Positions 3,022 to 15,797 of a stretch of DNA of 21,407 bases are shown here, one piece after another (positions within the stretch are counted from its first letter, which is position 1; each line of letters opens with the position of its first letter). The position numbers were made by a program, and so were the translations under genes. The stretch covers positions 1-21,407 of IMG/VR virus record IMGVR_UViG_3300040807_002847. The stretch is one strand, 5' to 3'. The notes under the pieces are model-generated. The model had not been told where the DNA came from. It made no database searches and was given only the letters and a program-made list of their open reading frames with translations. The DNA is from a virus.

Positions 3022-4845
3022 TCATTGGGCTTCTAGTTCTGCGATGCGACGTTCTTGGTTCTCGCATTGCAGGACTAGAAGTTTGACGGTGTCGAGTAGT
3101 TCTACGGTGAGTACTGCGTAGTCAATTCCGTTGGGGATGCCTTCTGCGTCAACGTGAACAGCCTGAGGGCATACCTCGGCTAGCTCCTCTGCAATCATTC
3201 CTCTACGATTGAAGTGCTTGCTTTGAAGTGTACTGTTCTTTACCGCTTGGCAATCTTCGCAGTCAGGGCAATCACAAACATCATAACTTTTCCATGTTTG
3301 CTCGTCTTCATCCCAATATCCACTGTCATAGTTGTCATCAAATTTCACGGTCCTACAGGACAGGAGTGACAAAGAGTTAGGGATGATCTCTTCATCCGGC
3401 TGAGCCGCAATATTTTTCTTGTACCGTTCAGAAGATCGAACAGGGAATGATGATGCACCAATGTACTCATATCCACTACCATCAAAATTACCTACATCAA
3501 GTCCAGTACCTGCCCCCGTCCAAGCTCTAATAACTGGAGCCATGCGGCTAGCGATATGGAAAGCCACACCAGTAGTTGCGCCCCCGCTAGTGGCGCTATT
3601 GAATGCCTGGATCGGCATATAGTCGTACGCTGAATTGTTGACAACCCTTGTTGATGTCATCTGGTTGGTTCCCACACCAGACGGGTAAATCGCTTGCCCA
3701 TCTACCACCTGCGACCTAAGCGTCGCTGGGGTGACATACCTCACATACGAATCATTCGATGCGTAGATACGGGTGAGTGTGTTAGTCGTTGAGCCAGAGG
3801 TGGTGTTGATCCACCCTGCTTGGATGTAACCATTACCATCTGTACGGACAATCTTGTTCGCCTCGTTATTCCTACCACCGTGAACATGAAGCCCGTCCGT
3901 GGTGTCGGCGTTACCAGCGGAATCGGCATAGCCGACGTGTGTGTCGGCATAAGGTGTGTCACCGTTGTATCCGTACAAACGCCATCTAGATCCAGTCCAA
4001 TATGTTTGTACGGAAAAATCGCTGTTTTCGTCTCGCCGGAAAAGGCGGGTTGGACCGCGACTGTTACGACTGTCGCTGTTCAAAGTTGAGTTATACGTCG
4101 TGCTTACAAAACTTGATGCGTGAACCCCATCTACGGTGTCGGCGTCAAGACCATTTCCCGTGCCTTCGTCTGCAACAGTCAGAATACGATTCCCGAATGT
4201 GTATGAGCGGTTGGTATCTGCTTCAAGCTGTAGTGGGTGAGGGGTTTCCCAAGCGTCATCGTCACCACGGTCGGCTAATATGTAAAAGTTATTTGAGTTG
4301 ATGTGAATCCAGAAGTCGTCTGCGCCACTTGTGGTGTCGTTGAATTTTATTTGCGGATCACTACCAGAAATAGTGACATCGCTTGTAATGGTTTCTAAAG
4401 ATGTTGAAATAGAAACGTTTGATGATCCGTCAAAAGATACGGATCCAGATACGACGCCGGTTAAATTTATTGTTCTAGCAGTTTCTAGAGTTGTTGCCGT
4501 GCTTGCGTTTCCGGTCAGGTTTCCAATTATTCCACTGGTAAACCGTCCGGTTCCAGTGACATCGAGTTCGTATGAGGGGTTTTGCTGGTTAATGCCCACC
4601 CTGTTTAGGTCTGAGTCAACAAAAAAGGTGTCGGTGTCAAATGTGACGTCAACATCTGCGGTGAGAGTTCCTGTAACAACCAGATTGTCAATTGTCACTG
4701 TTCCAGTTGACTGGACAGCAGTAAGCGCAGGGTCAATGGTTATTGAACCTAGAAGAACCCAATCAGACCCGTTGTAGTAGTAAGACACGTTGCTGATAGT
4801 GAAAATGTCACCAGCGCTCGGGTTTGCAGGATAGGGCACAGCCAT
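3022..4845 (-). CDS. Tail fibre/spike with C-terminal S74 intramolecular chaperone domain
   Basis: This 607-residue protein is read leftward. The N-terminus (PYPANPSAGDIF, YYYNGSDWV) resembles the start of many phage tail appendage proteins. The middle is rich in Gly, Ser, Thr and Asn with repetitive beta-type segments such as GNASTATTLETARTINL. From about residue 465 the sequence RSSERYKKNI (Ser471/Ser472, Lys476/477) matches the S74 self-cleaving chaperone domain, which trimerises and then releases the mature fibre. The last 30 residues form a short coiled coil ending in ERRIAELEAQ. An unusual CDCPDCEDC cluster (Cys524, 526, 529, 532) lies inside the chaperone domain. The fibre probably binds the host surface. 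Its start follows a TAAAAT box by six bases. It converges with the RNR with no gap. Confidence 0.9.
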   Translation of the reverse strand: MAVPYPANPSAGDIFTISNVSYYYNGSDWVLLGSITIDPALTAVQSTGTVTIDNLVVTGTLTADVDVTFDTDTFFVDSDLNRVGINQQNPSYELDVTGTGRFTSGIIGNLTGNASTATTLETARTINLTGVVSGSVSFDGSSNVSISTSLETITSDVTISGSDPQIKFNDTTSGADDFWIHINSNNFYILADRGDDDAWETPHPLQLEADTNRSYTFGNRILTVADEGTGNGLDADTVDGVHASSFVSTTYNSTLNSDSRNSRGPTRLFRRDENSDFSVQTYWTGSRWRLYGYNGDTPYADTHVGYADSAGNADTTDGLHVHGGRNNEANKIVRTDGNGYIQAGWINTTSGSTTNTLTRIYASNDSYVRYVTPATLRSQVVDGQAIYPSGVGTNQMTSTRVVNNSAYDYMPIQAFNSATSGGATTGVAFHIASRMAPVIRAWTGAGTGLDVGNFDGSGYEYIGASSFPVRSSERYKKNIAAQPDEEIIPNSLSLLSCRTVKFDDNYDSGYWDEDEQTWKSYDVCDCPDCEDCQAVKNSTLQSKHFNRRGMIAEELAEVCPQAVHVDAEGIPNGIDYAVLTVELLDTVKLLVLQCENQERRIAELEAQ

Positions 4846-4857: not shown

Positions 4858-4882
4858 GTTCAGGGGCAGTTACTTTATGCGC

Positions 4883-4895
4883 TACTCTTGTGGCA
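4883..4895 (+). promoter_or_regulatory. Leaderless -10 box for the first oxygenase operon
   Basis: TACTCT (4883-4888) is followed by six bases (TGTGGC) and ATG at 4895. There is no Shine-Dalgarno site. The -35 region (TTCAGG at 4859-4864, 18 bases away) is weak. This favours 4895 over the in-frame ATG at 4877. It lies back to back with the leftward fibre promoter in a 49-base divergent gap. Confidence 0.45.
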
Positions 4896-5551
4896 TGGAA
4901 ATAAAAGATTTCTTCGTTGGTGAAATGCCGGTGGTCGGAAACGATCCTTTTCCGCACATTTCCGCTAATGGTCTTTTTTCAGAATCTGTTCTTGACGCCG
5001 TATTGGATTGTTTTCCCGCAAATTCAGACAAACATTGGCGTAGGTACAGTGAATCCCATGAAGCAGGCAAAATGGAGATGTCTGATCCGAGCGGATGGCC
5101 AGAACTGATAGCCGAGGTTCTTGAGGTGATGACCTCAGACGAAATGGCAAAAATTGTTGGTGACAGTTTCGGCATCCCTGACTTGATTGGTTCAACATAT
5201 GGCGGTGGACTGCATTGCTCCCCCCGAGGTGCTCGTCTCGCAATGCACACGGATTTCACGCATCATCCAGACACGGGCTTGTATCGACGCATCAATATGT
5301 TGCTTTTTTTGAATAAAGGATGGGAAGAAAGTCACGGTGGAGCCTTGTACTTGGGTGACGATATGGAAGTTGTGGTTCCACCAGTTTTCAATCAACTGGG
5401 CTGTTTTGCTACGTCTGCTGTGTCATCGCATGGTCATCCGGTGCCATGGAACGCTGACTCCCCACGTCGAAGTCTCGCAGTGTATTTTTATTCACCTAAT
5501 GCACCTGCCGAATATTCAGGTCCGAACACGACTGTCTGGAAAGGCGAGTAA
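4895..5551 (+). CDS. 2OG-Fe(II) oxygenase
   Basis: This 218-residue protein has the iron triad of the 2-oxoglutarate/Fe(II) dioxygenase fold: His118 and Asp120 in MHTDF, and a distal His179 in SSHGHP. Arg191/Arg192 about 13 residues later could bind the 2OG carboxylate (RRSLAVYFY). The segment INMLLFLNKGW followed by GGALYLGDD is the usual core beta-strand pattern. Such enzymes hydroxylate protein, small-molecule or nucleobase carbons. It starts the rightward operon next to the tail fibre, and its stop overlaps the next start (TAATG), so it is coupled to the methyltransferase. Substrate unknown. It is the most divergent of the four oxygenases with respect to the 8652/9730 pair. Confidence 0.88.
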   Translation: MEIKDFFVGEMPVVGNDPFPHISANGLFSESVLDAVLDCFPANSDKHWRRYSESHEAGKMEMSDPSGWPELIAEVLEVMTSDEMAKIVGDSFGIPDLIGSTYGGGLHCSPRGARLAMHTDFTHHPDTGLYRRINMLLFLNKGWEESHGGALYLGDDMEVVVPPVFNQLGCFATSAVSSHGHPVPWNADSPRRSLAVYFYSPNAPAEYSGPNTTVWKGE

Positions 5552-6057
5552 TGCATCCCGAAGCTTGGTCGTGGCTGTCAAAACAAGTTGGCAAGGTGGG
5601 AAAAGTATCGTCAATTGTTGATATAGGGGGACGAAACAATAACGGCACACCTCGTGACCTGTTCCCTGGAGTCGAGTACACGGCAGTTGATTTCGTAGAA
5701 GGCGATGACGTGGACATCGTTTGCGACGCTGCCGAGTGGGTTCCTGATCGTGAGTGGGATATGGCGATCTGTACTGAGATGTTTGAACATTTGCCGCCAG
5801 ATAAGTACAAACCAATTTTGTCAAATATCAACATGGCTGTGAGGGCGAACGGGGTGCTGCTTTTCACTGCTGCTACTGATCCTCGGCGACCTCATAGCGC
5901 GTGGGGCGCTCCCGATCCGGGACCTGAAGAGTTCTACGAAAACGTTGACGTTGAAAAGTTGAAGTTAGACATGCGAGCATCGCGCTGGTTTATGGATGAG
6001 TTGGTTGTTGATCGACGTCATGGCGATGTTTATGTCCGTGCAATAAAACTGTCTTAA
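5551..6057 (+). CDS. Class I SAM-dependent methyltransferase
   Basis: This 168-residue protein shows a compact Rossmann methyltransferase. VDIGGRNNNG (from residue 23) is a variant motif I, Asp47 in TAVDFVEGDD is the ribose-binding acidic residue, and DMAICTEMFEHLPP is the motif IV/post-IV region. LLFTAATDPRRP is close to the motif VI strand. The fold matches Methyltransf_11/25-type enzymes, many of which modify small molecules or sugars. AAAGG sits a few bases upstream and the ATG overlaps the previous stop (TAATG), so it is co-translated with the oxygenase. The substrate cannot be inferred. Confidence 0.82.
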   Translation: MHPEAWSWLSKQVGKVGKVSSIVDIGGRNNNGTPRDLFPGVEYTAVDFVEGDDVDIVCDAAEWVPDREWDMAICTEMFEHLPPDKYKPILSNINMAVRANGVLLFTAATDPRRPHSAWGAPDPGPEEFYENVDVEKLKLDMRASRWFMDELVVDRRHGDVYVRAIKLS

Positions 6058-6065
6058 TTCATATA

Positions 6066-6725
6066 ATGCGTCATCTTGTAGCAATCCCTAGTAGATCTCG
6101 AATCGCTGAACTCTTGACGCTTGTTGAGGGTCTGAGGTTGTATGGGCATGGCGACATCGTGGTTCATGACAATGGGTACCCGGTTGACGAGTCTGGACAG
6201 TTGTCTGGTCTAGCCAATGTGGTTGATGCCAGAGGGTGGAAGTTCTACAGGATGTGGAACGACGCTTTGAGGATCGCGAAGGATGAACAATTTGATGCAG
6301 TTGTTTTGCTGAATGACGACATTGAGTTGCACTCGGAGTCAATTGATGTGGCTTTGGATGTTCTTAGTGGTGATGACTCTATTGGAGTGGTGGGTCTCAA
6401 TTACCGGCGTCGCCTTGAAGACGGTGTTGATAGGGGTGCCGGGTTTAGGCAGACGAAAGGCACTTACAAGGATGGCGGAATTTGGGGTTGCGCGTTTATT
6501 GTCCGAACGTCATGCATGGATACGGTTCCGTACATTGATGAGCGCTACAACTTGTGGTACGGGGATGACGAGTTATTCAAAAGCATGAACAAATGTGGTT
6601 ACAAGACTGGGATTGCAGTTGGTGCTCCGGTGCTGCATGAGGGTTCGGCAACTACAAATATGTTTCCTGAGTTGATTGCTTTGACTGACGAAGACCGAAA
6701 GTTATTTGAATCTAAGCGTTTCTGA
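6066..6725 (+). CDS. GT-A fold glycosyltransferase (family 2-like)
   Basis: This 219-residue protein opens with a beta strand (HLVAIPSRSRI) typical of nucleotide-sugar binding. It then has VVLLNDDIEL with Asp84-Asp85 as the metal-binding DxD-type motif, and GGIWGCAFIVRTSC followed by DERYNLWYGDDELFKSMNKCGYK, the acceptor/ED region seen in family 2 transferases. It probably moves a sugar from a nucleotide donor. It follows the methyltransferase by 8 bases without a clear Shine-Dalgarno site, so translational coupling is likely. Its 3' end overlaps the convergent glycosyltransferase by 14 bases. Confidence 0.82.
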   Translation: MRHLVAIPSRSRIAELLTLVEGLRLYGHGDIVVHDNGYPVDESGQLSGLANVVDARGWKFYRMWNDALRIAKDEQFDAVVLLNDDIELHSESIDVALDVLSGDDSIGVVGLNYRRRLEDGVDRGAGFRQTKGTYKDGGIWGCAFIVRTSCMDTVPYIDERYNLWYGDDELFKSMNKCGYKTGIAVGAPVLHEGSATTNMFPELIALTDEDRKLFESKRF

Positions 6726-7404
6726 CTACTGTCATGTCGTAGCCACGCCTGGTTATTGAGGGGACGTGGCGAGGGTAGTGCTGCCCAACAAGGTCTTTTC
6801 GTACGTAGGTGTCAAAGCCTAAGAAGTCAACTACATCACGATGGAAGCATGGGTCGTCTGTGAGGTTTATGTCTCCACGCCATTTGATGCGCTCAAATAC
6901 TTGTTTTTCAAGAAGCAGGAATCCGGCGGTGTTCATGTGGGATTGAACTGGGTATGGGTATTTGTCTACGACTGGACCGTTGAGGCAGTAGGTGGGGACT
7001 TCCCCTCCGACGATTGGGTGTTCCATCTCTAGGAGCTTGGGCAGGGTGTCGTCGGGTGGCATCATGTCGGCGTCAAGGAACAGGATGTGTGTTGCGTCTT
7101 GTTCAATGGCGTAATCGTGAACGATGTTTCTGCCGGTTGTGATGTGTCTGATTCGGTTAGCTCCGGTTACCTCTGTTCGTTTGTCGTCGAGTGTGAATGT
7201 CCAGTGTTCTCCACCTATTTCTTCAAGTCGTTTTGTGAGGGGGGAGAAGAAGTCAATTCCTCGTGCGTCAATTTCAATTGATGCGAAGAACTGAAGTTTT
7301 TCTGGACTGTTGGCTACGAGTTTTTCAGCGTTTTTGAGCCATGACGACCATGTTGGTTCTTTGCTCATTGCAAAGGTTGTGAGTGTTGTGCCGACGACGA
7401 TCAT
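6712..7404 (-). CDS. GT-A fold glycosyltransferase, leftward
   Basis: The 230-residue protein starts with IVVGTTLTTF. It has HILFLDADMMPPDD with Asp111-Ala-Asp113 as a DxD metal and nucleotide-sugar motif, followed by PIVGGEVPTYC and AGFLLLEKQVF. These fit a family 2-like glycosyltransferase. DDPCFHRDVVDFLGFDTYV near residue 190 looks like the catalytic-base region. It is convergent with the glycosyltransferase at 6066. Its start is preceded by TAAACT and six bases, a leaderless layout, so it may be transcribed separately from the two small genes upstream of it. Confidence 0.8.
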   Translation of the reverse strand: MIVVGTTLTTFAMSKEPTWSSWLKNAEKLVANSPEKLQFFASIEIDARGIDFFSPLTKRLEEIGGEHWTFTLDDKRTEVTGANRIRHITTGRNIVHDYAIEQDATHILFLDADMMPPDDTLPKLLEMEHPIVGGEVPTYCLNGPVVDKYPYPVQSHMNTAGFLLLEKQVFERIKWRGDINLTDDPCFHRDVVDFLGFDTYVRKDLVGQHYPRHVPSITRRGYDMTVVRNA

Positions 7405-7416
7405 GCACCAAGTTTA
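7404..7416 (-). promoter_or_regulatory. Leaderless -10 box for leftward glycosyltransferase
   Basis: TAAACT (7416-7411 on the minus strand) is followed by TGGTGC and the ATG at 7404. No -35 consensus is seen. It matches the TAnnnT-N6-ATG layout of other starts here. Confidence 0.4.
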
Positions 7417-7439
7417 TGTCGCCCTTGTTTTTTGTAGGG

Positions 7440-7712
7440 TTAGATGTATTTTAGAGCGTTTTTAACTAAGTCAATAATTTGTGAGTCGTCAATGTAGTGG
7501 GTGCCGTTTAGCATCATGCTGTTTCTAGGCGTTTGAATAATCATCCCATTCACATTTAACGGTTTAGCGATGGTTATTGATTTTGCGCCACAAAGGAAAC
7601 ACAGCGGTTCGCCAGACCACACCGACATGCAGGGTTCGCAACCAAATATCTTCTGATTGTCGGGCATGCCGATAAAGGTTGTTGCTGTTAGAGAAAGCAA
7701 CAACTCCCGCAT
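7440..7712 (-). CDS. Small zinc-ribbon-like protein
   Basis: The leftward protein of up to 90 residues carries Cys25-x2-Cys28-x9-Cys38-x2-Cys41 (CEPC and CFLC), a classic four-Cys zinc-ribbon arrangement. A hydrophilic tail with NGMIIQTPRNSMMLNG follows. Function unknown. The start is uncertain. The ATG at 7712 gives the longest form, but an inverted repeat (7678-7704) falls in its first codons, and an alternative ATG at 7667 would give 75 residues keeping the whole Cys motif. It lies between a leftward coiled-coil gene and the glycosyltransferase and is probably in one transcript with the former. Confidence 0.65.
   Translation of the reverse strand: MRELLLSLTATTFIGMPDNQKIFGCEPCMSVWSGEPLCFLCGAKSITIAKPLNVNGMIIQTPRNSMMLNGTHYIDDSQIIDLVKNALKYI
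7678..7704 (-). repeat. Perfect 8-bp inverted repeat
   Basis: GTTGTTGC and GCAACAAC are separated by 11 bases. It could form a hairpin at the start of the zinc-ribbon gene. On the minus strand it is followed by CTTTATC, too few T residues for a convincing terminator. It may be an operator, a translational control hairpin, or a weak terminator of the gene upstream. Confidence 0.6.
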
Positions 7713-7741
7713 CTTCGCTCGACCGAACGACCTATTCAGTC

Positions 7742-7924
7742 TCAGGGAATTTGAGACAGGTCTTCTTGAGGTTCAGGCAGGGAAGGCTCAGGCATGGTAG
7801 CCGCTTGTGCAGCCTGCTCTTGCATCTGAGACAGGGCGGCGCGAAGCACTGCGTTATCAACGGTGAGCTTCTTCACCTGCTCTGCGAGGTCATTGATCAC
7901 TGCTTCAATGTTGATGTTCGTCAT
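7742..7924 (-). CDS. Short coiled-coil protein with proline-rich tail
   Basis: This 60-residue leftward protein starts at the ATG 7924-7922. Residues 4-40 form an amphipathic heptad-type helix (IEAVINDLAEQVKKL, then TVDNAVLRAAL), and the C-terminus is Pro/Glu-rich (PEPSLPEPQED). I know this only as a type of small phage protein of unknown function. An upstream in-frame extension to 8032 would overlap the divergent oxygenase start and its promoter. TATGAT lies seven bases before the 7924 ATG, so that start is preferred. Confidence 0.7.
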   Translation of the reverse strand: MTNINIEAVINDLAEQVKKLTVDNAVLRAALSQMQEQAAQAATMPEPSLPEPQEDLSQIP

Positions 7925-7982
7925 GAGGCAGATCATAGCAACTTCATTGAGGCTCTGTCGGAACTGCAATAAGATGGGTGAA
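7924..7982. promoter_or_regulatory. Overlapping divergent leaderless promoters
   Basis: Rightward: TTGAGG (7947-7952), 17 bases, TAAGAT (7970-7975), six bases, ATG 7982. Leftward: CCGACA (7961-7956), 18 bases, TATGAT (7937-7932), seven bases, ATG 7924. The two elements occupy the same 57 bases, so RNA polymerase binding is probably mutually exclusive. Neither start has a Shine-Dalgarno site. Confidence 0.65.
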
Positions 7983-8659
7983 TGCTTTTCGTCAAGGACA
8001 ATTTCATCACTGACCCAGACTTGACGGCACAAATCTTGGGTGACTCATCTTTCTTCCCTGAAGCGATGGGTGGGGGGAATCTGGGTGCGACGCTCAACGA
8101 ATTTCATTACGAGCAGGCAGACTGCTACGCGCCGTACATGTTTTGGGATGGGTGGGAGAACAGCAGGGCTGACACCCTGAAGAAAAGAGTTATTGAAAAG
8201 ATTTGGCGTAATTCTGAGTATCTGGGTTTTGACGAGAAGGACGTCGCTGGTTTTGAATACTGGACTCGATCGTTCAGCCCAGGGCAGTGGCTAGGCATCC
8301 ATGTTGACGAGGACACGTTTCGTTACAGTGCCGAGAAGTACTTCCATGGCCCTGCTATCGGCTGTGTTTGGTACGGGTTCTCTGAAGCGCGTGGCGGGTA
8401 TTTGGAGATCCACGAAAAGGGTTTAGCGGAAGGAGAGAATCAACTGGAGCGTGAGGTTGTTGACGCTCTAACTTCTCCCATTGAGAACCGTGAAAGAATT
8501 GCTTACAAACCTAATCGGTTGGTTGTGTTTGATGCTGGTCACCGCCTGCATGAGACAACTCCTGTCACTGATGGAGTGAAGCAGGTTATGGTGGTGAATG
8601 TTTGGTTGAAGAGTTCTCCTCCAGTTGCCTTGCAGACGAGCGAGTTTTTTTATGAGTGA
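7982..8659 (+). CDS. 2OG-Fe(II) oxygenase-like protein with Lys in place of 2OG Arg
   Basis: This 225-residue protein has GIHVDED with His107 and Asp109, and a distal GHRLHETTPV with His187 or His190, as the iron triad. Where the other oxygenases carry Arg ten residues after the distal His, this one has Lys200 (VKQVMVVNVW), a substitution that still binds 2OG in some subfamilies. RGGYLEIHEKG is the core double-strand region. It resembles protein- or small-molecule-hydroxylating phage dioxygenases. Its stop lies inside the start of the next oxygenase (8 bases overlap), so the two are coupled. Confidence 0.78.
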   Translation: MLFVKDNFITDPDLTAQILGDSSFFPEAMGGGNLGATLNEFHYEQADCYAPYMFWDGWENSRADTLKKRVIEKIWRNSEYLGFDEKDVAGFEYWTRSFSPGQWLGIHVDEDTFRYSAEKYFHGPAIGCVWYGFSEARGGYLEIHEKGLAEGENQLEREVVDALTSPIENRERIAYKPNRLVVFDAGHRLHETTPVTDGVKQVMVVNVWLKSSPPVALQTSEFFYE

Positions 8660-9377
8660 AGTCGTTGACGACCGTTTGCCCCTGTTGAGGGTGTACCCGA
8701 ACTTTTTGTCGGGAGATGAACTTGATTTCTGGTCGGGGATGGTGCGCAGAGACGAGTTTTGGGTGCAGACAGGGGCATTCAGGCACGAGGAGGACAGCGC
8801 TGTCGGATATCAGCCCCCTCATTTCGTAATGAATGAGGAGTTTCTTCGTGGTGTTGAAGGTTTCTACAAGAGGGAAGAATTTTTGGTGTCTTCAATCTGC
8901 GATGTTGTGGAGGATTTCTTTGCGGAAGATTTCGTCGTCGGTTCGCAATTATTTTTTCGGAAGTGGGTGAAAGGGTATTTTCAGCACACGCATTTTGACC
9001 ACGCCAACAGTGACGGCGTCGTTGATATTCGTTCGCACGGCGACGAGCCAGAGTCAGCTATGCCTATCGCGTTTCATGACGTCGCTACTGTTCTGTACTA
9101 CAACGATGATTTTGACGGTGGTGAAATAACTTTCCTGGATGGTGACGTGTCAATCAAACCGACACCAGGGATGCTCGCAGTTTTTCCTTGCACAGAGTTT
9201 TACGGTCACGGCGTCAACGAGATTTTGGCGGGTGAAAGATACATGTCGGCGCACTTTTGGACTCGAGCCAAAACGATTGTCATGGATACTCATGGGGGAA
9301 TTCTTGGTGAATCGTGGAGTCGTAAGGTTAGATGGCGAGAAAAAGTTGACCGTCACTTGGTCAATGACGCTTCTTGA
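8652..9377 (+). CDS. 2OG-Fe(II) oxygenase (paralogue of the 9730 gene)
   Basis: This 241-residue protein shows His114-Phe-Asp116 in HTHFDHAN, the distal His186 in FYGHGV, and Arg196 ten residues later (GERYMSAHFW). YYNDDFDGGEITFLDGD and PGMLAVFP are signatures of the prolyl-4-hydroxylase-like 2OG oxygenase fold. A near-identical motif order and the same His-to-Arg spacing occur in the gene at 9730, so these are paralogues. The ATG at 8652 overlaps the previous stop. An in-frame TTG at 8625 is possible but would lie deep inside the upstream gene. Confidence 0.9.
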   Translation: MSEVVDDRLPLLRVYPNFLSGDELDFWSGMVRRDEFWVQTGAFRHEEDSAVGYQPPHFVMNEEFLRGVEGFYKREEFLVSSICDVVEDFFAEDFVVGSQLFFRKWVKGYFQHTHFDHANSDGVVDIRSHGDEPESAMPIAFHDVATVLYYNDDFDGGEITFLDGDVSIKPTPGMLAVFPCTEFYGHGVNEILAGERYMSAHFWTRAKTIVMDTHGGILGESWSRKVRWREKVDRHLVNDAS

Positions 9378-9390
9378 CTCGTCGGTGTTG

Positions 9391-9404
9391 TATGCTCACC
9401 ACTA
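9391..9404 (+). promoter_or_regulatory. Leaderless -10 box within the oxygenase cluster
   Basis: TATGCT (9391-9396) is followed by seven bases and ATG at 9404. TTGACT lies 11 bases upstream of the -10, too close for a standard -35. No Shine-Dalgarno is seen. This supports 9404 rather than the in-frame TTG 9374 or ATG 9392. Confidence 0.45.
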
Positions 9405-9730
9405 TGAGTGATACCGGTTCAGAAATTCCAGTTGTAGACACCGATCAAGTCTCTGCTCTGAGTAGTGCCAAGCATGCCCAGACAGTTGTTCTCACGATGG
9501 ACGAGGACGAGACTTATATGGCGATGTGGGACGGCACCTATCTTCGGCTGATGCTGCCTTTCAAGGCAGATATTGAAAACAGTCTGATGGTGTACAAAAT
9601 TTTGGGACACATTGAGGTCGATTTGCCGTTCCCTCTTGATCCAGTCACTTTTGAGCGTCAGGCACAGTTCTTGATCCACGCCTACAAGGACGGATTGACC
9701 GAATCTGAAGAAGGTTCAGAGGACGATTGA
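9404..9730 (+). CDS. Small acidic protein of unknown function
   Basis: This 108-residue protein is acidic at both ends (last residues TESEEGSEDD). Its middle shows alternating hydrophobic strands (TVVLTMDEDETYMAMWDG, LRLMLPF). I do not recognise it. It lies between two 2OG oxygenases and its stop overlaps the next start (TGATG), so it may be an accessory or binding subunit for the modification system, or the first gene of a separately transcribed half of the cluster. AT-rich codon use does not differ from its neighbours. Confidence 0.7.
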   Translation: MSDTGSEIPVVDTDQVSALSSAKHAQTVVLTMDEDETYMAMWDGTYLRLMLPFKADIENSLMVYKILGHIEVDLPFPLDPVTFERQAQFLIHAYKDGLTESEEGSEDD

Positions 9731-10461
9731 TGAGCGACGCACCTCAATTGCTTGTGGTGCGAGACTTCCTGACACCAGAAGAACTATCTCTTTTCAAAAA
9801 TTTTTTTGAGAATCGGTGCGAGTGGGAACAGGTTGCTCATGCCGATTTTACCGAGCGTCAGCACTACGCTCGTGACATAACGGAGTTTAAAGGTTCGCCC
9901 GAGTATGCGGACATTTATGAGGCGTACGAACGTATTGCTTTACGAAAGAAAGAAACACTTGAAGGTTTCTTTGGGGAGACTCTTGCCCAGCCTGTAAATA
10001 TGGCGTTGCGTAAGTGGGTTGTTGGTGACTACCAGTCTGCGCATTCGGATGTTGGGCATCCAGATGGGAAACTGATTATTCGACCGGCGGCTGTTGAGAC
10101 TGGACCTTTGAGTCTTCACCAGTATGACGTCGCGGCTGTTCTTTACTTCAACGACGAATTTGAAGGTGGAGAGATTTATTTTCCGCACTTCAAGAAAGAT
10201 ATTAATCCTGAACCTGGAATGTTTGTAGCTTTTCCTGCTTCTCATCACTATTTGCACGGCGTGGCGACAGTCCGATCTGGCGCTAGGTACGTACAGACTT
10301 CGTTCTGGCCATACTCGCGAACGATTGTCCATAACTTGGTTCCACAGATTCCCCGAGACTGGTGGAAGAGGTTCGCAAATTCAAGTGAAATTTTGGACTT
10401 CTTGCCTGAAGAAGTCATGTCCGAACTTGACTCAGACTTCCTCCCTCCGGACTACCGATGA
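9730..10461 (+). CDS. 2OG-Fe(II) oxygenase
   Basis: This 243-residue protein carries His105-Ser-Asp107 in SAHSDVGH, the distal His176 in YLHGV and Arg186 ten residues on (GARYVQTSFW). YFNDEFEGGEIYFP and PGMFVAFP match the paralogue at 8652. Residues 1-90 hold LLVVRDFLTPEEL, typical of the N-terminal helix and strand of these enzymes. An AGAGG element lies about seven bases before the ATG. An ATGA overlap joins it to the carbamoyltransferase. Substrate unknown. Confidence 0.9.
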   Translation: MSDAPQLLVVRDFLTPEELSLFKNFFENRCEWEQVAHADFTERQHYARDITEFKGSPEYADIYEAYERIALRKKETLEGFFGETLAQPVNMALRKWVVGDYQSAHSDVGHPDGKLIIRPAAVETGPLSLHQYDVAAVLYFNDEFEGGEIYFPHFKKDINPEPGMFVAFPASHHYLHGVATVRSGARYVQTSFWPYSRTIVHNLVPQIPRDWWKRFANSSEILDFLPEEVMSELDSDFLPPDYR

Positions 10462-11918
10462 GGATCTTAGGTATCAATGATTCAAGTCACGATGCTGCCG
10501 TCAGCGTTGTTGATAACGGTGAAATAGTTTTCGCTGCTCATAGTGAGAGATACAACAAACAAAAAAATACGTTTGAGTTAGCTCCAGAGTTGATTGAAGA
10601 AGCTCTGTCGTATGGCAACCCTGACGTAGTGGCTTACTTTGAGCGTCGAAACAGGAAGCGGTTACGCCGAATGCTGTACGGCGGAATCAACGGCGAGTAC
10701 AAGCATTTGTACAAAAGAAAGTTTAAGAACTCATTACCCAAAGAGATCCAAATCTCTCACCACTACAGCCATGCTTGCGCTGGCTATTTCACCTCGCCGT
10801 TCAACGATGCAACAATTGTTGTGCTGGATGCGATTGGCGAATTTGATACGGCGACAGTTTGGCATGCGAGTGATGGTGTCATCAGGAAAAAAATGGCATA
10901 CAAAGTTCCGTTTAGTTTCGGTCTTTTTTATTCGGCTTTCACTGCTCTTGTCGGGTTGAAGCCAGGTTTTGATGAATACATCCTGATGGGTATGGCTGGG
11001 TATGGAGACAAGGACAGGTTTTTTGATGCGGTAGCCGAATATTTTCCTGACCCGGAAATCCAGGTCAAAAGTTTTCATGCTGGTGTTGAGGGTTGGAATT
11101 ACCCGTTAGAGAGCGAACAAGACAGGTTTGATCTTGCTGCCGCAGTGCAGGCTGTTTACGAGCAGCGCATGGTCGGTTTCATGCAGCGAGTTCGACGTGA
11201 AAGCAGATCTCAAAATCTTGTTTTCATGGGTGGATGCGCCCTCAACTGTTCAGCCAACACCAAGTTATTGGGAATGTGGGAAAACATTTGGATAATGCCA
11301 AACCCTGGTGACGCTGGTTCAAGTTTGGGTGCTGCGTTGGCGGTTCACAATGACCACGTGCGATGGAAGGGTCCTTATCTGGGGCATCAGATAGGTTCTG
11401 CTTTACCTATCAATTCAACTTTTGAGAAGTTGCGCGATGAGGGTGTGGTTGGGGTTGCTGCCGGGAGGGCAGAGTTTGGTCCACGCGCATTCGGAAACAG
11501 AAGTCTGCTTGCTGATCCTCGAACATTAGAAATGAAGGAGAAGGTTAATGAGGTGAAGCTCCGTGAGCAGTTCCGACCTTTTGCTCCGATTGTGTTGGAG
11601 GATTATGCGTACGATTGGTTTGATTTAGATAGACCTTCGCCTTACATGCAGTATGCCGTCAAGTGCAAGAGACCTAATTTGATTCCTGCTGTTGTCCATG
11701 TTGATGGAACGTCTCGTGTGCAGACTGTAAACCCGTATCAGCACTTTGAGTTGTATGAGTTGTTGACTCGGTGGTACGAGCACACTGGGGTTCCTGTTTT
11801 ATTGAACACAAGTCTCAATGTCCGCGATCAGCCGTTGATAAACGATCTTGCGGATGTTGAGCAGTGGAAGATAAATAATCCTTCAGTTTCTATTGTGACT
11901 GGGTTTTGCCGTGAGTGA
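10458..11918 (+). CDS. O-carbamoyltransferase, NodU/CmcH/TobZ family
   Basis: This 486-residue protein has the N-terminal Kae1-like ATPase domain (ILGINDSSHDAA at the start, then HHYSHA with His101, His102 and His105, VVLDAIGEFD, MGMAGYGDKD, MGGCALNCSANTKL). Its C-terminal carbamoyltransferase domain carries FGPRAFGNRSLL, LREQFRPFAPI, VHVDGTSRVQTVNP and GVPVLLNTSLN. In the family these two parts make carbamoyl-adenylate and transfer the carbamoyl group to a hydroxyl on a sugar or related acceptor. It is somewhat shorter than the usual 540-600 residues. It is translationally coupled (ATGA) to the oxygenase before it and overlaps the SGNH gene after it (GTG start), so a hydroxylate-then-carbamoylate order is plausible. 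Confidence 0.93.
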   Translation: MRILGINDSSHDAAVSVVDNGEIVFAAHSERYNKQKNTFELAPELIEEALSYGNPDVVAYFERRNRKRLRRMLYGGINGEYKHLYKRKFKNSLPKEIQISHHYSHACAGYFTSPFNDATIVVLDAIGEFDTATVWHASDGVIRKKMAYKVPFSFGLFYSAFTALVGLKPGFDEYILMGMAGYGDKDRFFDAVAEYFPDPEIQVKSFHAGVEGWNYPLESEQDRFDLAAAVQAVYEQRMVGFMQRVRRESRSQNLVFMGGCALNCSANTKLLGMWENIWIMPNPGDAGSSLGAALAVHNDHVRWKGPYLGHQIGSALPINSTFEKLRDEGVVGVAAGRAEFGPRAFGNRSLLADPRTLEMKEKVNEVKLREQFRPFAPIVLEDYAYDWFDLDRPSPYMQYAVKCKRPNLIPAVVHVDGTSRVQTVNPYQHFELYELLTRWYEHTGVPVLLNTSLNVRDQPLINDLADVEQWKINNPSVSIVTGFCRE

Positions 11919-13143
11919 GTCGTCTGGCAGGTATCCGCACGAATACTTTTTTCTTGATGCGAATGACAAATCTTCTTGGGACGCTTACGAAGATTTTGTT
12001 TTAGGAGACGACCGCCATTTTTCTGCGCCGTTGCACTTACTGCGTAGAACTCGGTTTCACGGGTATCCGAATTTTTCCAACTCCCACTTTGGTGATGATG
12101 TCGTGTTGGACGAGGAAACTGGCATCAGGTGGAGTTGGGGAGGTGAATGGCACAGAGGGTTTCCGTCTGACGGCAATCCCGATAATCGACTTCCAGGTTT
12201 GATTTACAAAGTCAATTCAGACAACATGCATGGCGAGGATTTTGTCTCAAACCCAGATGTTTTGACTTTGGGTTGTTCCGTTACTAGCGGTATTGGTTTG
12301 GCACATAATTTTTCTTGGCCAAACATAGTTAGTCACGTTTTTGGTAAAAGCGTGAACAATATTGGGACTCCTGGAGAATCGGCAGCGTTCATGGTTTACG
12401 CAGCCATGGATCACATCCGTAAGTACGGTTTTCCAAGGTCAATATATTTCTTAGTGCCACCCCTTGACCGTTATACTGGCCCACTTCCTGCTCCTGAAAA
12501 AGTCAGCAATAAAAGGAATCGTGAATGGATCGGCGGAAAAGTCACTTACTACGCCGAGAACGGTTACTACATCGACTTCAATAACAAAGTTTTTTCGTAC
12601 CTATCAATTGACCAGAACAAGTCAATCATCCCGCTAGACATTGTTGCCAACTACAACTTGTCCATGATTGAAGTGCTAGCGATGTTGTGTGACGCTATGG
12701 GCATTGAGTTGCGTCTCTCAAGTTGGGAGTCTCACACTTTTAAAACTCTAAGGCTGATTGACTATCCGGAGGTTGTTCCACCTCCGCTGTTTTTGATGAA
12801 GCCAAGTAGGACTTGGGGTGACATTGCTCATGAAGAAAATGAGCGTTGCTACGCAAACTGGGGGTACCCCGGAGAGATAACTCCTATCGGTTCCCGAACA
12901 AAGTGTTGCGATAAAAAACCACAGTCAAAGTGGCAGGACGAAATGTGGGACTACGGGCTTGACATCAAGTGGGATCGGTTTTACCCGCACCCAGGTTTTC
13001 ACATGCATCTACATTTGGCTGAGTTGTTGACCGGTGAAGAGATATCTGATAGTCAGTACGGAGACATAAGTGCTTGGCATGAGGGAACAAAGTTTGAGCC
13101 GACGGATTTGGATGCCGTTACTCGACCAGATCGGAAAATATGA
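11911..13143 (+). CDS. SGNH-hydrolase-like protein, copy 1
   Basis: This 410-residue protein contains the pattern of many SGNH/GDSL hydrolases: YKVNSDNMHGEDF, then LGCSVTSGIGLAHNFSWPNIV (Ser123 as block I nucleophile, with Cys replacing the usual Asp of GDS). A C-terminal D355-x4-H360 precedes PGFHMHLHLAELL and takes the place of the DxxH pair. Such proteins deacylate or acylate sugars and proteins. It uses a GTG start at 11911 that overlaps the carbamoyltransferase stop. A CC pair (TKCCDKKP) is shared with the next gene. Whether it is an active esterase, a transferase or a lectin-like protein is open. Confidence 0.72.
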   Translation: MSESSGRYPHEYFFLDANDKSSWDAYEDFVLGDDRHFSAPLHLLRRTRFHGYPNFSNSHFGDDVVLDEETGIRWSWGGEWHRGFPSDGNPDNRLPGLIYKVNSDNMHGEDFVSNPDVLTLGCSVTSGIGLAHNFSWPNIVSHVFGKSVNNIGTPGESAAFMVYAAMDHIRKYGFPRSIYFLVPPLDRYTGPLPAPEKVSNKRNREWIGGKVTYYAENGYYIDFNNKVFSYLSIDQNKSIIPLDIVANYNLSMIEVLAMLCDAMGIELRLSSWESHTFKTLRLIDYPEVVPPPLFLMKPSRTWGDIAHEENERCYANWGYPGEITPIGSRTKCCDKKPQSKWQDEMWDYGLDIKWDRFYPHPGFHMHLHLAELLTGEEISDSQYGDISAWHEGTKFEPTDLDAVTRPDRKI

Positions 13144-14105
13144 TTTCAGAATTCTTACGCAAATTTCCATTTGTTGACCCAACAGATGTTGACGGTGTTG
13201 ATTATGGGGCAACACGTTTGGCTGGTTCGTTCTTTTTTCCTCAACACGACGAGCAGCGTCACTTCAAAGAGGAAAATTGCTACTTCATTGGAGATGAGAA
13301 GTTCACTAATGGAGAAGATTGGCATGCGCCGATGGGCGACCTGTCTTATCGGGTCAATTCGCACGGCTTCCATGGGACGGAGTTCGTTCAGAACCCTGAC
13401 CTTCTTTGTGCAGGCTGCTCTGTGACTGTTGGGTTTGGATTGAGCTTCAGGGAAACTTGGCCACATATCTTGAGGGACAACCGTTACGACACAGAGTACG
13501 TGAATGTCGTTGGTGAACCGGGCGCAAGTATCTCAAAGATTGTCTACATGGTGTTTTCGCACATTGACAGGTTTGGGTGGCCTAAGGAAATTCATTTGTG
13601 CTTGCCTGATATTCATCGTGGGTGGGTTCAAGTGCGTCGAGGTGGTGACGATTATGAGGAGTCTGCTATTTGGTACGACCCTGACACCGCGAACTTTTTT
13701 ACGCATGAGGCGAAGAGGAATGGCGTGCGGATTGAGTCTCCTGATGGCACTGATCGTCAGCCTCCGTTGGCAATGATTGTTCGTGAGAACATGATGGCGT
13801 TGGACATGTTGAGTCTGGTTTCGTGGGCTACGGGGATCCCTCTGGTTCTTTCCACGTATGCAGCGTCTACTCATAAGATGATGCTGGCTAATGGTGTTAG
13901 GTATCCTGGTTATGCTCCGCTGCATAAGAGCATGTTGGATTCAAAGCCTCATCCTGTGGGGCATCCGACTGATTGTTGTATGGCAACTCCGGAGGATTTT
14001 TGTTGGCGGGAGGAAGTCTGGACATACGCTTTTGATGGCGTGCATCCAGGGTTTCACTCTCATATCCATTTGGCTGAAGCCCATCTAGGAAGCAGAATAG
14101 TGTGA
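13140..14105 (+). CDS. SGNH-hydrolase-like protein, copy 2
   Basis: This 321-residue protein repeats the architecture of the preceding gene: YRVNSHGFHGTEF, then AGCSVTVGFGLSFRETWPHIL with Ser94 as the candidate nucleophile, and a regular DGVH (Asp299, His302) before PGFHSHIHLAEAH. The TDCCMATPEDFCW segment matches the CC region of copy 1. The two are clearly paralogues, and this copy is closer to the standard family layout. It starts with an ATGA overlap and may be followed by a tiny coupled gene at 14102. Hydrolysis or transfer of an acyl group is likely; substrate unknown. Confidence 0.75.
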   Translation: MISEFLRKFPFVDPTDVDGVDYGATRLAGSFFFPQHDEQRHFKEENCYFIGDEKFTNGEDWHAPMGDLSYRVNSHGFHGTEFVQNPDLLCAGCSVTVGFGLSFRETWPHILRDNRYDTEYVNVVGEPGASISKIVYMVFSHIDRFGWPKEIHLCLPDIHRGWVQVRRGGDDYEESAIWYDPDTANFFTHEAKRNGVRIESPDGTDRQPPLAMIVRENMMALDMLSLVSWATGIPLVLSTYAASTHKMMLANGVRYPGYAPLHKSMLDSKPHPVGHPTDCCMATPEDFCWREEVWTYAFDGVHPGFHSHIHLAEAHLGSRIV

Positions 14106-14185
14106 AGTTGAAAATTTTAAAACTGCGCTTGAAGCACGTTTGGAAAAAAATCACAAAGAAATATAAGCCTCCGTACATTTACTGA
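14102..14185 (+). CDS. Putative Lys-rich 27-residue microprotein
   Basis: A GTG overlaps the stop of the SGNH gene by four bases (GTGA). It opens a 27-residue frame with nine Lys, one Arg and one His among Leu, Ile, Val and Trp, ending in KPPYIY. The first 20 residues alternate cationic and hydrophobic positions and could form an amphipathic helix. It lies before the leaderless promoter of the next gene. It may be real, given the coupling geometry, or a chance frame. A membrane-active or nucleic-acid-binding peptide is conceivable. Confidence 0.4.
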   Translation: MKLKILKLRLKHVWKKITKKYKPPYIY

Positions 14186-14187
14186 GG

Positions 14188-14223
14188 TTGCAAAAAATGT
14201 CAACGCACCCTATGATGGGGACA
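14188..14223 (+). promoter_or_regulatory. Leaderless promoter for the ADP-ribosylglycohydrolase fusion
   Basis: TTGCAA (14188-14193), 17 bases, TATGAT (14211-14216), then GGGGAC and ATG at 14223. This is the cleanest example of the TAnnnT-N6-ATG layout in the window. There is no usable Shine-Dalgarno site because the G-run touches the start codon. Confidence 0.7.
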
Positions 14224-15797
14224 TGACATCAACTGGTTATTACTACGACGACTTTTTCTACGAGGAGAGCATGCAGACACTCTTTGGCAGACGAGACAAA
14301 GAGAAGGCTTTGCTTGGCACTGTTTTTGGTCAGGCTGTAGCCGATGCTTTAGGGGCACCGTTTGAGTTTGGTGCCGCTAACCGCTACTCGGAATGTTTCG
14401 GGGGCGAGCCTGTCCTGACGGGAACTGGCGAGATGATTGGTGGCGGAGCTTTCAATTGGCGTCCTGGCGAATTCACCGACGACACGCAGATGGCTCTAAT
14501 CGGGATATCTGCAATTGTCGAAAACTATGACAGGTTTTCGGAAGCGTTTGCCATTGGCACTAAGAACAAGATTGACGATGCTTACGATCACTTCTTGTCG
14601 CACCTCTACGACATGTACAGAACTTGGGCTAAGACCGCAGCCGATGTTGGTAGCACCACGAGGGGCTCGCTGTCTCACCACGACTACCGATTGGGTGCCA
14701 AGGCTCAGCACGAGAGAACTGGTTTCAGCGCAAGCAATGGTTGCATTATGCGGCTTGGTCCAATGATTGCTTCTTTTGTAGGTAATTTTGATGAACTCAA
14801 TCTTGAAGATGTTTTGAGGTTTTCGGAGTCCCAGACACGACTTACTCACTGGGACGACGATGCGGTTGATGCATCTTTACTGATGGCGTCAATCATGTAC
14901 AAGATTTACGATTCGGTGCAGAACGACAGTTTTCCTGTTGGAACGGAGGCTGAACTGTTAGCCAGTATTGTTGATGATCTTTCTGGTGAGTTTCACAACG
15001 AGGCTCTTGGGATGGTTTTTGGATTCCGTGACTCTGGAGTTGTGTTGAACGGACCTACGAACGGGAAAGCCATCACATGTTTGGCTCAAGCGGTTTGGGC
15101 TGTTTGTTCAACGTCATCGTTTGAGGATGCAATCGTCAAGACCATCAACATTGGTGGAGACACAGACACTGTCGCTGCTGTTGCTGGTGCTATCGCTGGC
15201 GCGTTGTACGGGGTTGATTCCATCCCTTCCAGGTGGATCACGAATGTCAACGGGGTTATTCCTGGAACAGAATTCGGTCACATGGGGTACGACGAACTCA
15301 ACTCCGTTATTCATGATTGGGTTTTGTTCACCAATCCTGATGAGTTGACTCGATTTGAACCCGCTGCTGGTCCTCAACTGCTTGACGAAAACTTTGAGTT
15401 GTATGCTGCGAATCTTCCCGGTGTGGCGTCGTGCGATGATGATTCTTTCCATCTCATCTCCCTATGCCGTACGGGCTCTTTGACGAAGAGGTTCAAGAAT
15501 CGGCGCAACTATTTTATTATTGACACAGTTGGGGCGAACCCTCATCTAGAGACCACGGTCAAGGATGCGGTAGACACGATTGACGCTTGGCTTGATTCAG
15601 GTAAAAAAGTTGTTGTGCATTGTCATGCTGGACGTAGCCGAACTGGGTTCATCTTGAAAGCGTGGTATATGCGTCGTTACGGTGTATCGCACGCTGAGGC
15701 GCATATTTGGTTGGCTGATCGTTGGAAGCTTTACGATCAGTTTGGAAATACTGACTTCACTAAATTCCTTGACGACTTTACGTCTTTGCCTGTCTAA
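14223..15797 (+). CDS. Fusion: ADP-ribosylglycohydrolase + dual-specificity-type phosphatase
   Basis: This 524-residue protein joins two enzyme domains. Residues about 25-350 are an ADP-ribosylglycohydrolase (DraG/ARH): FGQAVADALGAPFEF, EFTDDTQMA (Thr85, Asp86, Asp87 for the dinuclear metal) and IGGDTDTVAAVAGAIAGALYG (Asp313, Asp315). Residues about 390-524 are a cysteine phosphatase: the P-loop is HCHAGRSR with Cys467 and Arg473, and Asp434, 33 residues upstream, is well placed as the general acid, as in dual-specificity enzymes. The ARH part removes ADP-ribose from protein or nucleic acid. The phosphatase could act on phosphoprotein, phosphorylated ADP-ribose or RNA. It has its own leaderless promoter and lies just before the structural operon. 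Confidence 0.93.
   Translation: MTSTGYYYDDFFYEESMQTLFGRRDKEKALLGTVFGQAVADALGAPFEFGAANRYSECFGGEPVLTGTGEMIGGGAFNWRPGEFTDDTQMALIGISAIVENYDRFSEAFAIGTKNKIDDAYDHFLSHLYDMYRTWAKTAADVGSTTRGSLSHHDYRLGAKAQHERTGFSASNGCIMRLGPMIASFVGNFDELNLEDVLRFSESQTRLTHWDDDAVDASLLMASIMYKIYDSVQNDSFPVGTEAELLASIVDDLSGEFHNEALGMVFGFRDSGVVLNGPTNGKAITCLAQAVWAVCSTSSFEDAIVKTINIGGDTDTVAAVAGAIAGALYGVDSIPSRWITNVNGVIPGTEFGHMGYDELNSVIHDWVLFTNPDELTRFEPAAGPQLLDENFELYAANLPGVASCDDDSFHLISLCRTGSLTKRFKNRRNYFIIDTVGANPHLETTVKDAVDTIDAWLDSGKKVVVHCHAGRSRTGFILKAWYMRRYGVSHAEAHIWLADRWKLYDQFGNTDFTKFLDDFTSLPV

Follow-up and report, generated by a model that had tools for sequence, protein, structure and literature searches.

We describe a cluster of enzyme genes in a 21.4-kb virus fragment from IMG/VR (the window, by which we mean the whole stretch of DNA analysed). 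The cluster sits between a tail fibre gene and a block of head-tail and tail genes. Its core is a run of seven genes, oxyB, oxyC, p118, oxyD, CT, SG1 and SG2 (positions 7982-14105), which encode predicted 2-oxoglutarate (2OG) oxygenases, a conserved small protein, a carbamoyltransferase (CT) and two SGNH/GDSL-type proteins (SG1 and SG2). Catalytic motifs are intact in the oxygenases and the carbamoyltransferase, the SGNH proteins keep their nucleophile block, and genes for SGNH proteins, carbamoyltransferases and oxygenases are linked in other phages as well. Tentatively, and with somewhat less than even confidence, we propose that the cluster encodes a late tailoring pathway combining hydroxylation, carbamoylation and an SGNH reaction, with the tail fibre, or a glycan carried by it, as the likeliest target.

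A coupled run of oxygenase, carbamoyltransferase and SGNH genes

Each gene of the core overlaps its neighbour by 4-8 bases, and in phages whose carbamoyltransferase is ~50-80% identical to that of the window short overlaps recur between the same kinds of gene. Upstream of the core, oxyA, a methyltransferase-like gene and GT1 lie on the same strand, followed by GT2 and two small open reading frames on the opposite strand. The genes of the cluster, divided into core and variable parts, are as follows.

4877..5551, + strand: oxyA, predicted 2OG-Fe(II) oxygenase, variable part (PF13640 2.2e-12, PF13661 2.5e-6)
5551..6057, + strand: class I S-adenosylmethionine methyltransferase-like protein, variable part (PF13489 4.6e-6, phrog_32762 8.6e-13)
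6066..6725, + strand: GT1, putative GT2-type glycosyltransferase, variable part, weak assignment (phrog_22332 6e-4; PF00535 0.09, below cut-off)
6712..7404, - strand: GT2, putative glycosyltransferase with a DxD-like LDAD, variable part, weak assignment (Anp1 0.016, below cut-off)
7982..8659, + strand: oxyB, predicted 2OG-Fe(II) oxygenase, core (PF13640 25.5 bits against a cut-off of 27)
8652..9377, + strand: oxyC, prolyl-4-hydroxylase-like 2OG oxygenase, core (PF13640 8e-8, phrog_61 2.1e-16); overlaps the end of oxyB
9374..9730, + strand: p118, conserved small protein (118 amino acids), core; homologues in the same position in other phages
9727..10461, + strand: oxyD, prolyl-4-hydroxylase-like 2OG oxygenase, core (PF13640 1.4e-7, phrog_61 3.8e-16; PDB 3itq 6e-4)
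10458..11918, + strand: CT, predicted O-carbamoyltransferase of a short, SGNH-linked clade, core (PF16861 9e-52, PF02543 2.5e-38; clade support in the tree 99/97)
11911..13143, + strand: SG1, SGNH/GDSL-type protein, core (GCSVTSG; AlphaFold pLDDT 74; best PDB match CgnD, 8a2n)
13140..14105, + strand: SG2, second SGNH/GDSL-type protein, core (31% identical to SG1; GCSVTVG and DGVHPGFHSHIH)

A further open reading frame of 90 amino acids (7440-7712, minus strand) has four Cys arranged as two CxxC-type pairs and may be a zinc ribbon.

All four window oxygenases carry an HxD motif (HTD at residue 124 in oxyA, HVD at 107 in oxyB, HFD113 and HSD106 in the other two) together with a distal His, and on these iron ligands each is predicted to be a prolyl-4-hydroxylase-like 2OG oxygenase. 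Three exceed the Pfam cut-off for PF13640; oxyB falls just below it and has no significant match in the PDB. Moreover, oxyC and oxyD match phrog_61, a phage family of 2OG oxygenases, and the PDB match to oxyD is a bacterial prolyl 4-hydroxylase.

The carbamoyltransferase is of the NodU/TobZ type, with both domains above their cut-offs (PF02543, 132.8 bits; PF16861, 175.5 bits), and a PDB search with its profile recovers NovN, GdmN and TobZ. The HHxxH and GPRA(L/F)GNR motifs form invariant or nearly invariant columns in the alignment. It shares domain architecture and catalytic motifs with NodU, TobZ, NovN and GdmN, but it is shorter (486 amino acids) and belongs to a clade tied to SGNH genes.

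SG1 and SG2 are without any Pfam match. They and their relatives share a GCSxTxG nucleophile block, in which the G and S of G-C-S are invariant, and an HPGxHxHxH block. The catalytic DxxH of SGNH hydrolases is DGVH in SG2; in SG1 an insertion precedes the invariant His. In the PDB the SG1 model finds CgnD, from biosynthesis of crocagin, a ribosomally synthesized and post-translationally modified peptide (RiPP), at E 4e-5 and Z 13.1 across 215 residues, and GDSL enzymes at Z 10-13. Because a generic GDSL lipase scores nearly as well (Z 12.2), the general fold of SG1 is safe and the likeness to CgnD suggestive only. From the modelled fold of SG1 and the nucleophile block of both proteins we assign the two to the SGNH/GDSL superfamily. 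A tblastn search with SG1 found no close relatives among named phages.

Homologues of p118 at the equivalent position in other phages are 41-58% identical to it. Its predicted fold (pLDDT 77) has four strands and one helix, and a search of the PDB with this fold gave no significant match. The methyltransferase-like protein reaches 26.9 of 27 bits against PF13489, and neither GT1 nor GT2 has a match in the PDB or NCBIfam.

An earlier note on this DNA had listed four 2OG oxygenases, a methyltransferase, two glycosyltransferases, a carbamoyltransferase and two SGNH proteins. Our searches recover this inventory, with the two glycosyltransferase genes present and their identity weak. The list missed p118, and the window is a fragment of a genome that encodes at least eight more 2OG oxygenases. 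The same note described most of the genes as coupled, with products made in stoichiometric groups. The coupling holds from oxyB to SG2, the minus-strand GT2 and two small open reading frames further upstream divide the cluster into two parts, and stoichiometric production is a conjecture.

Conservation of the core in phages and bacteria

Among the best 80 loci in a carbamoyltransferase scan of viral contigs, those closest to the window keep the order oxyB, oxyC or oxyD, p118, CT, SG while their other neighbours differ; oxyB is kept in L002/L004, L006, L008-L011 and others. Within the same 80 loci, oxyA, the methyltransferase-like gene, GT1 and GT2 are confined to the window lineage and L004. 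The likeness to Nod-factor tailoring suggested in the earlier note rests on these glycosyltransferases and this methyltransferase. Hydroxylation, carbamoylation and an SGNH step make up the chemistry that is conserved.

A reverse scan with the SG alignment as query gave 42 SG lineages (clusters at 70% identity). In 36 of them a carbamoyltransferase lies within three genes of SG, directly adjacent in 32, and a 2OG oxygenase is found in the SG locus of 33; the pattern used came mostly from SG proteins beside a carbamoyltransferase and so favours that subfamily. The genes are thus not scattered across genomes, the outcome that would have told against the cluster as first described. At more distant phage loci, SG adjoins CT and upstream proteins carry a radical-SAM-like CxxxCxxC motif (159 copies in 47 loci), a pattern read by eye, without a domain search, in marine phage loci L013-L082.

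In the carbamoyltransferase tree, the SGNH-linked clade of 44 rows (99/97) spans phages and bacteria and includes 37 of the 38 SG-linked rows; in the actinophage subclade (100/100) all 18 rows are SG-linked. Among bacteria, actinomycetes, Edaphobacter, Collimonas and others have carbamoyltransferases 43-48% identical to that of the window, frequently encoded next to an SG gene, and the SG proteins of Edaphobacter and Geodermatophilus are 46% identical. These bacterial pairs lie near GT2-type glycosyltransferases, a DegT aminotransferase and a Mur ligase, and in Edaphobacter also near mobile-element genes.

T4-like cyanophages and pelagiphages (PMC3037559; S-SSM5, S-SCSM1, HTVC008M) resemble the window in having 2OG or PhyH-domain genes near a carbamoyltransferase, and S-SSM5 has carbamoyltransferase, 2OG oxygenases and tail fibre within one stretch. 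Unlike in the window, the full core module was not found in the five cyanophage and pelagiphage records compared, and their carbamoyltransferases fall outside the SGNH-linked clade. Among the five, only Mosig showed an SG-like gene (60 bits). The annotated products of the carbamoyltransferase cluster of Mosig (EXVC030M, L103) are three MoaA-like proteins, nitroreductases, aminotransferases, a desaturase and a methyltransferase, and the cluster resembles a biosynthetic gene cluster.

A second cluster and the tail fibre neighbourhood

A genome record of 137,166 bp (G001) matches the window at 99.97% across 18 kb. Its first and last 298 bases both match window positions 3352-3649, which suggests that the genome closes on itself. 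A megablast search with the window DNA found no close relatives. We surveyed proteins of at least 120 amino acids over most of this genome. A second cluster, at 85.5-98 kb, encodes two PhyH, two TauD and four PF13640 oxygenases, with a fifth PF13640 match at 8.6e-4, as well as DUF6065, GSHPx-like and Rossmann proteins; the DUF6065 protein has nothing significant in the PDB. The genome total is at least 12 oxygenases, and up to 14 counting the fifth PF13640 match and a profile match at 48.6 kb.

The second cluster adjoins a protein of 2094 amino acids that matches tail fibre families, and the two-cluster layout is also present in G006. Elsewhere, four loci (L200, L202, L204 and L244) share, with small differences, the order fibre, x98, GSHPx-like, SG, oxygenase, SG, CT, oxygenases, DUF6065, TauD2, oxygenases, and the fibre that precedes this operon is of the same type as the 2094-residue protein. 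Two more loci (L206 and L208) have the same run with no carbamoyltransferase detected. Parts of both G001 clusters are thus joined in one fibre-linked operon elsewhere, suggesting that the window holds half of a pathway.

To the left of the window cluster are the minus-strand tail fibre and a class II ribonucleotide reductase. At its C terminus this fibre (3022-4845) has a SERYKKNI stretch resembling intramolecular chaperones; it also contains a Cys-rich insert, CDCPDCEDC. The genes to the right encode an ADP-ribosylglycohydrolase-phosphatase fusion, a head-tail adaptor, a tail sheath and a tape-measure-like protein. The fusion (14223-15797) joins an ADP-ribosylglycohydrolase to a dual-specificity phosphatase domain (PF03747 3.7e-53, PF00782 1.3e-10), and an ADP-ribosyltransferase exoenzyme family (PF03496) has a match among the proteins encoded in the first 31 kb of G001.

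WhiB genes are present in nine of the ten records that bear the module. Given the known distribution of WhiB, the carrier viruses probably have aquatic actinobacteria as hosts. Besides WhiB proteins, G001 (loci L083-L090) encodes a histone H1-like HC2 match, ThyX, a Rad52-type protein and a C5 cytosine methyltransferase.

What the pathway may modify

In the pathway that we propose, the 2OG oxygenases would hydroxylate a substrate, possibly presented by p118, and the carbamoyltransferase would use carbamoyl phosphate and ATP to carbamoylate a hydroxyl. The SGNH proteins would be the partner esterase, acyltransferase or peptide hydrolase. The second cluster, with its TauD, PhyH and additional prolyl-4-hydroxylase-like enzymes and its DUF6065, GSHPx-like and Rossmann proteins, would serve the same pathway. 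The target would most likely be a structure of the phage itself, the tail fibre or a glycan attached to the fibre, and mature virions would then bear a modified adhesin. The order of reactions, the target and the benefit to the phage are what we infer. Hydroxylation and carbamoylation chemistry has so far been assigned to no phage part, and a search of the available literature on phage carbamoyltransferases with SGNH proteins, or on 2OG modification of phage tails, found nothing relevant. It is conceivable, although we regard it as doubtful, that this multi-oxygenase, carbamoyltransferase and SGNH pathway adds a new hydroxyl-carbamoyl modification to the tail fibre protein, a class of virion decoration not described before.

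Several observations weigh against a fibre target. Thr, Gly and Ala abound in the fibre of 2094 amino acids whereas Pro and Lys are scarce, so that it offers no obvious target for a prolyl or lysyl hydroxylase; we rejected a Pro- or Lys-rich fibre as the hydroxylase target on this composition. Some of the phages retrieved with SG have a terminase gene, and not a fibre, in the neighbourhood of the SG-CT pair. Finally, given the neighbours of the bacterial pairs, glycans or small molecules would fit as well.

Those bacterial neighbours favour an alternative in which a host cell-surface or capsule-like glycan is modified, leading to superinfection exclusion or a change of receptor: the carbamoyltransferase would carbamoylate a sugar hydroxyl, and the SGNH proteins would add or remove acyl groups. 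The kin of NodU, TobZ, NovN and GdmN include sugar-carbamoylating enzymes, epimerases and glycosyltransferases surround the carbamoyltransferase of S-SCSM1, and SGNH carbohydrate esterases are among the fold matches to SG1. Nevertheless, we consider a host glycan unlikely: the cluster has a late structural position, the recurring oxygenases look like prolyl hydroxylases, and the glycosyltransferases are restricted to the window lineage and L004.

We think it rather improbable that a small molecule or modified peptide is made and released in the infected cell. The nearest precedent is crocagin biosynthesis (PMC10070186), in which a 2OG-dependent dioxygenase (CgnC), the hydrolase CgnD, a carbamoyltransferase (CgnI) and a methyltransferase (CgnL) are clustered as in the window; CgnD is also the nearest fold to SG1, and the annotated enzymes around the Mosig carbamoyltransferase make a comparable cluster. 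However, the phage cluster has many oxygenases and lies in a late region. No precursor peptide gene was recognised by eye among its small open reading frames, where no dedicated search was made, nor were relatives of CgnB or CgnE, with whose sequences no search was made. Moreover, p118 is predicted to fold, and CgnD scores only ~1 Z unit above the generic lipase.

Modification of DNA is the reading that the earlier note had placed slightly behind surface decoration. Hydroxylated bases would be carbamoylated, as in 5-carbamoyloxymethylcytosine, which is made by a phage-type carbamoyltransferase shown to be active on 5-hydroxymethylcytosine and co-occurring with thymidylate-synthase homologues (PMC8670742, eLife 2021). 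That enzyme is likewise phage-borne and of the same superfamily, and G001 has a C5 cytosine methyltransferase, ThyX and a dCMP-deaminase family protein. Yet the window carbamoyltransferase has SGNH and 2OG partners, is 27% identical to the validated enzyme and belongs to another clade, the validated enzyme being a long branch, itself of unsure placement, outside the 44 SGNH-linked rows. The window enzyme has GPRAFGNRS where the validated one has GPRALCNTT, a motif that covers two discriminating positions of that study (with TobZ numbering as inferred). No PF00303 protein, the thymidylate-synthase-type hydroxymethylase, was found in G001-G008, including G001 (137 kb, with terminal overlap) and G006; Tet_JBP (TET/JBP) is never above cut-off, and one of ten module-carrying records has the C5 methyltransferase. 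Hypermodification of DNA by a thymidylate-synthase-type hydroxymethylase or by TET/JBP was rejected for want of a match above cut-off. On these sequence comparisons DNA hypermodification is disfavoured, and we judge it very unlikely. Decoration of the virion or a surface gains from the late structural genes around the cluster and from the tail fibre beside both halves and the fused form elsewhere.

In cyanophages, 2OG oxygenases have been proposed to serve host nitrogen metabolism by lowering or sensing 2-oxoglutarate (PMC3037559). Such a role would suit a genome with many 2OG oxygenases but is barely credible here, as it leaves the fixed CT and SGNH linkage and the late position unexplained, and the proposal concerned cyanobacterial NtcA regulation whereas the present phages carry WhiB.

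Phages of aquatic microbes encode many 2OG oxygenases and carbamoyltransferases of unsettled role; in cyanophages the oxygenases have been linked to the nitrogen status of the host. The conserved tie to SGNH genes, together with the position near fibre genes, suggests a different, concrete and testable role, in a dedicated tailoring pathway. The SGNH-linked carbamoyltransferase clade of actinomycetes and other bacteria may likewise mark unexplored tailoring pathways. If the pathway is as we propose, virion adhesins may receive chemical finishing by phage enzymes, which would bear on host recognition.

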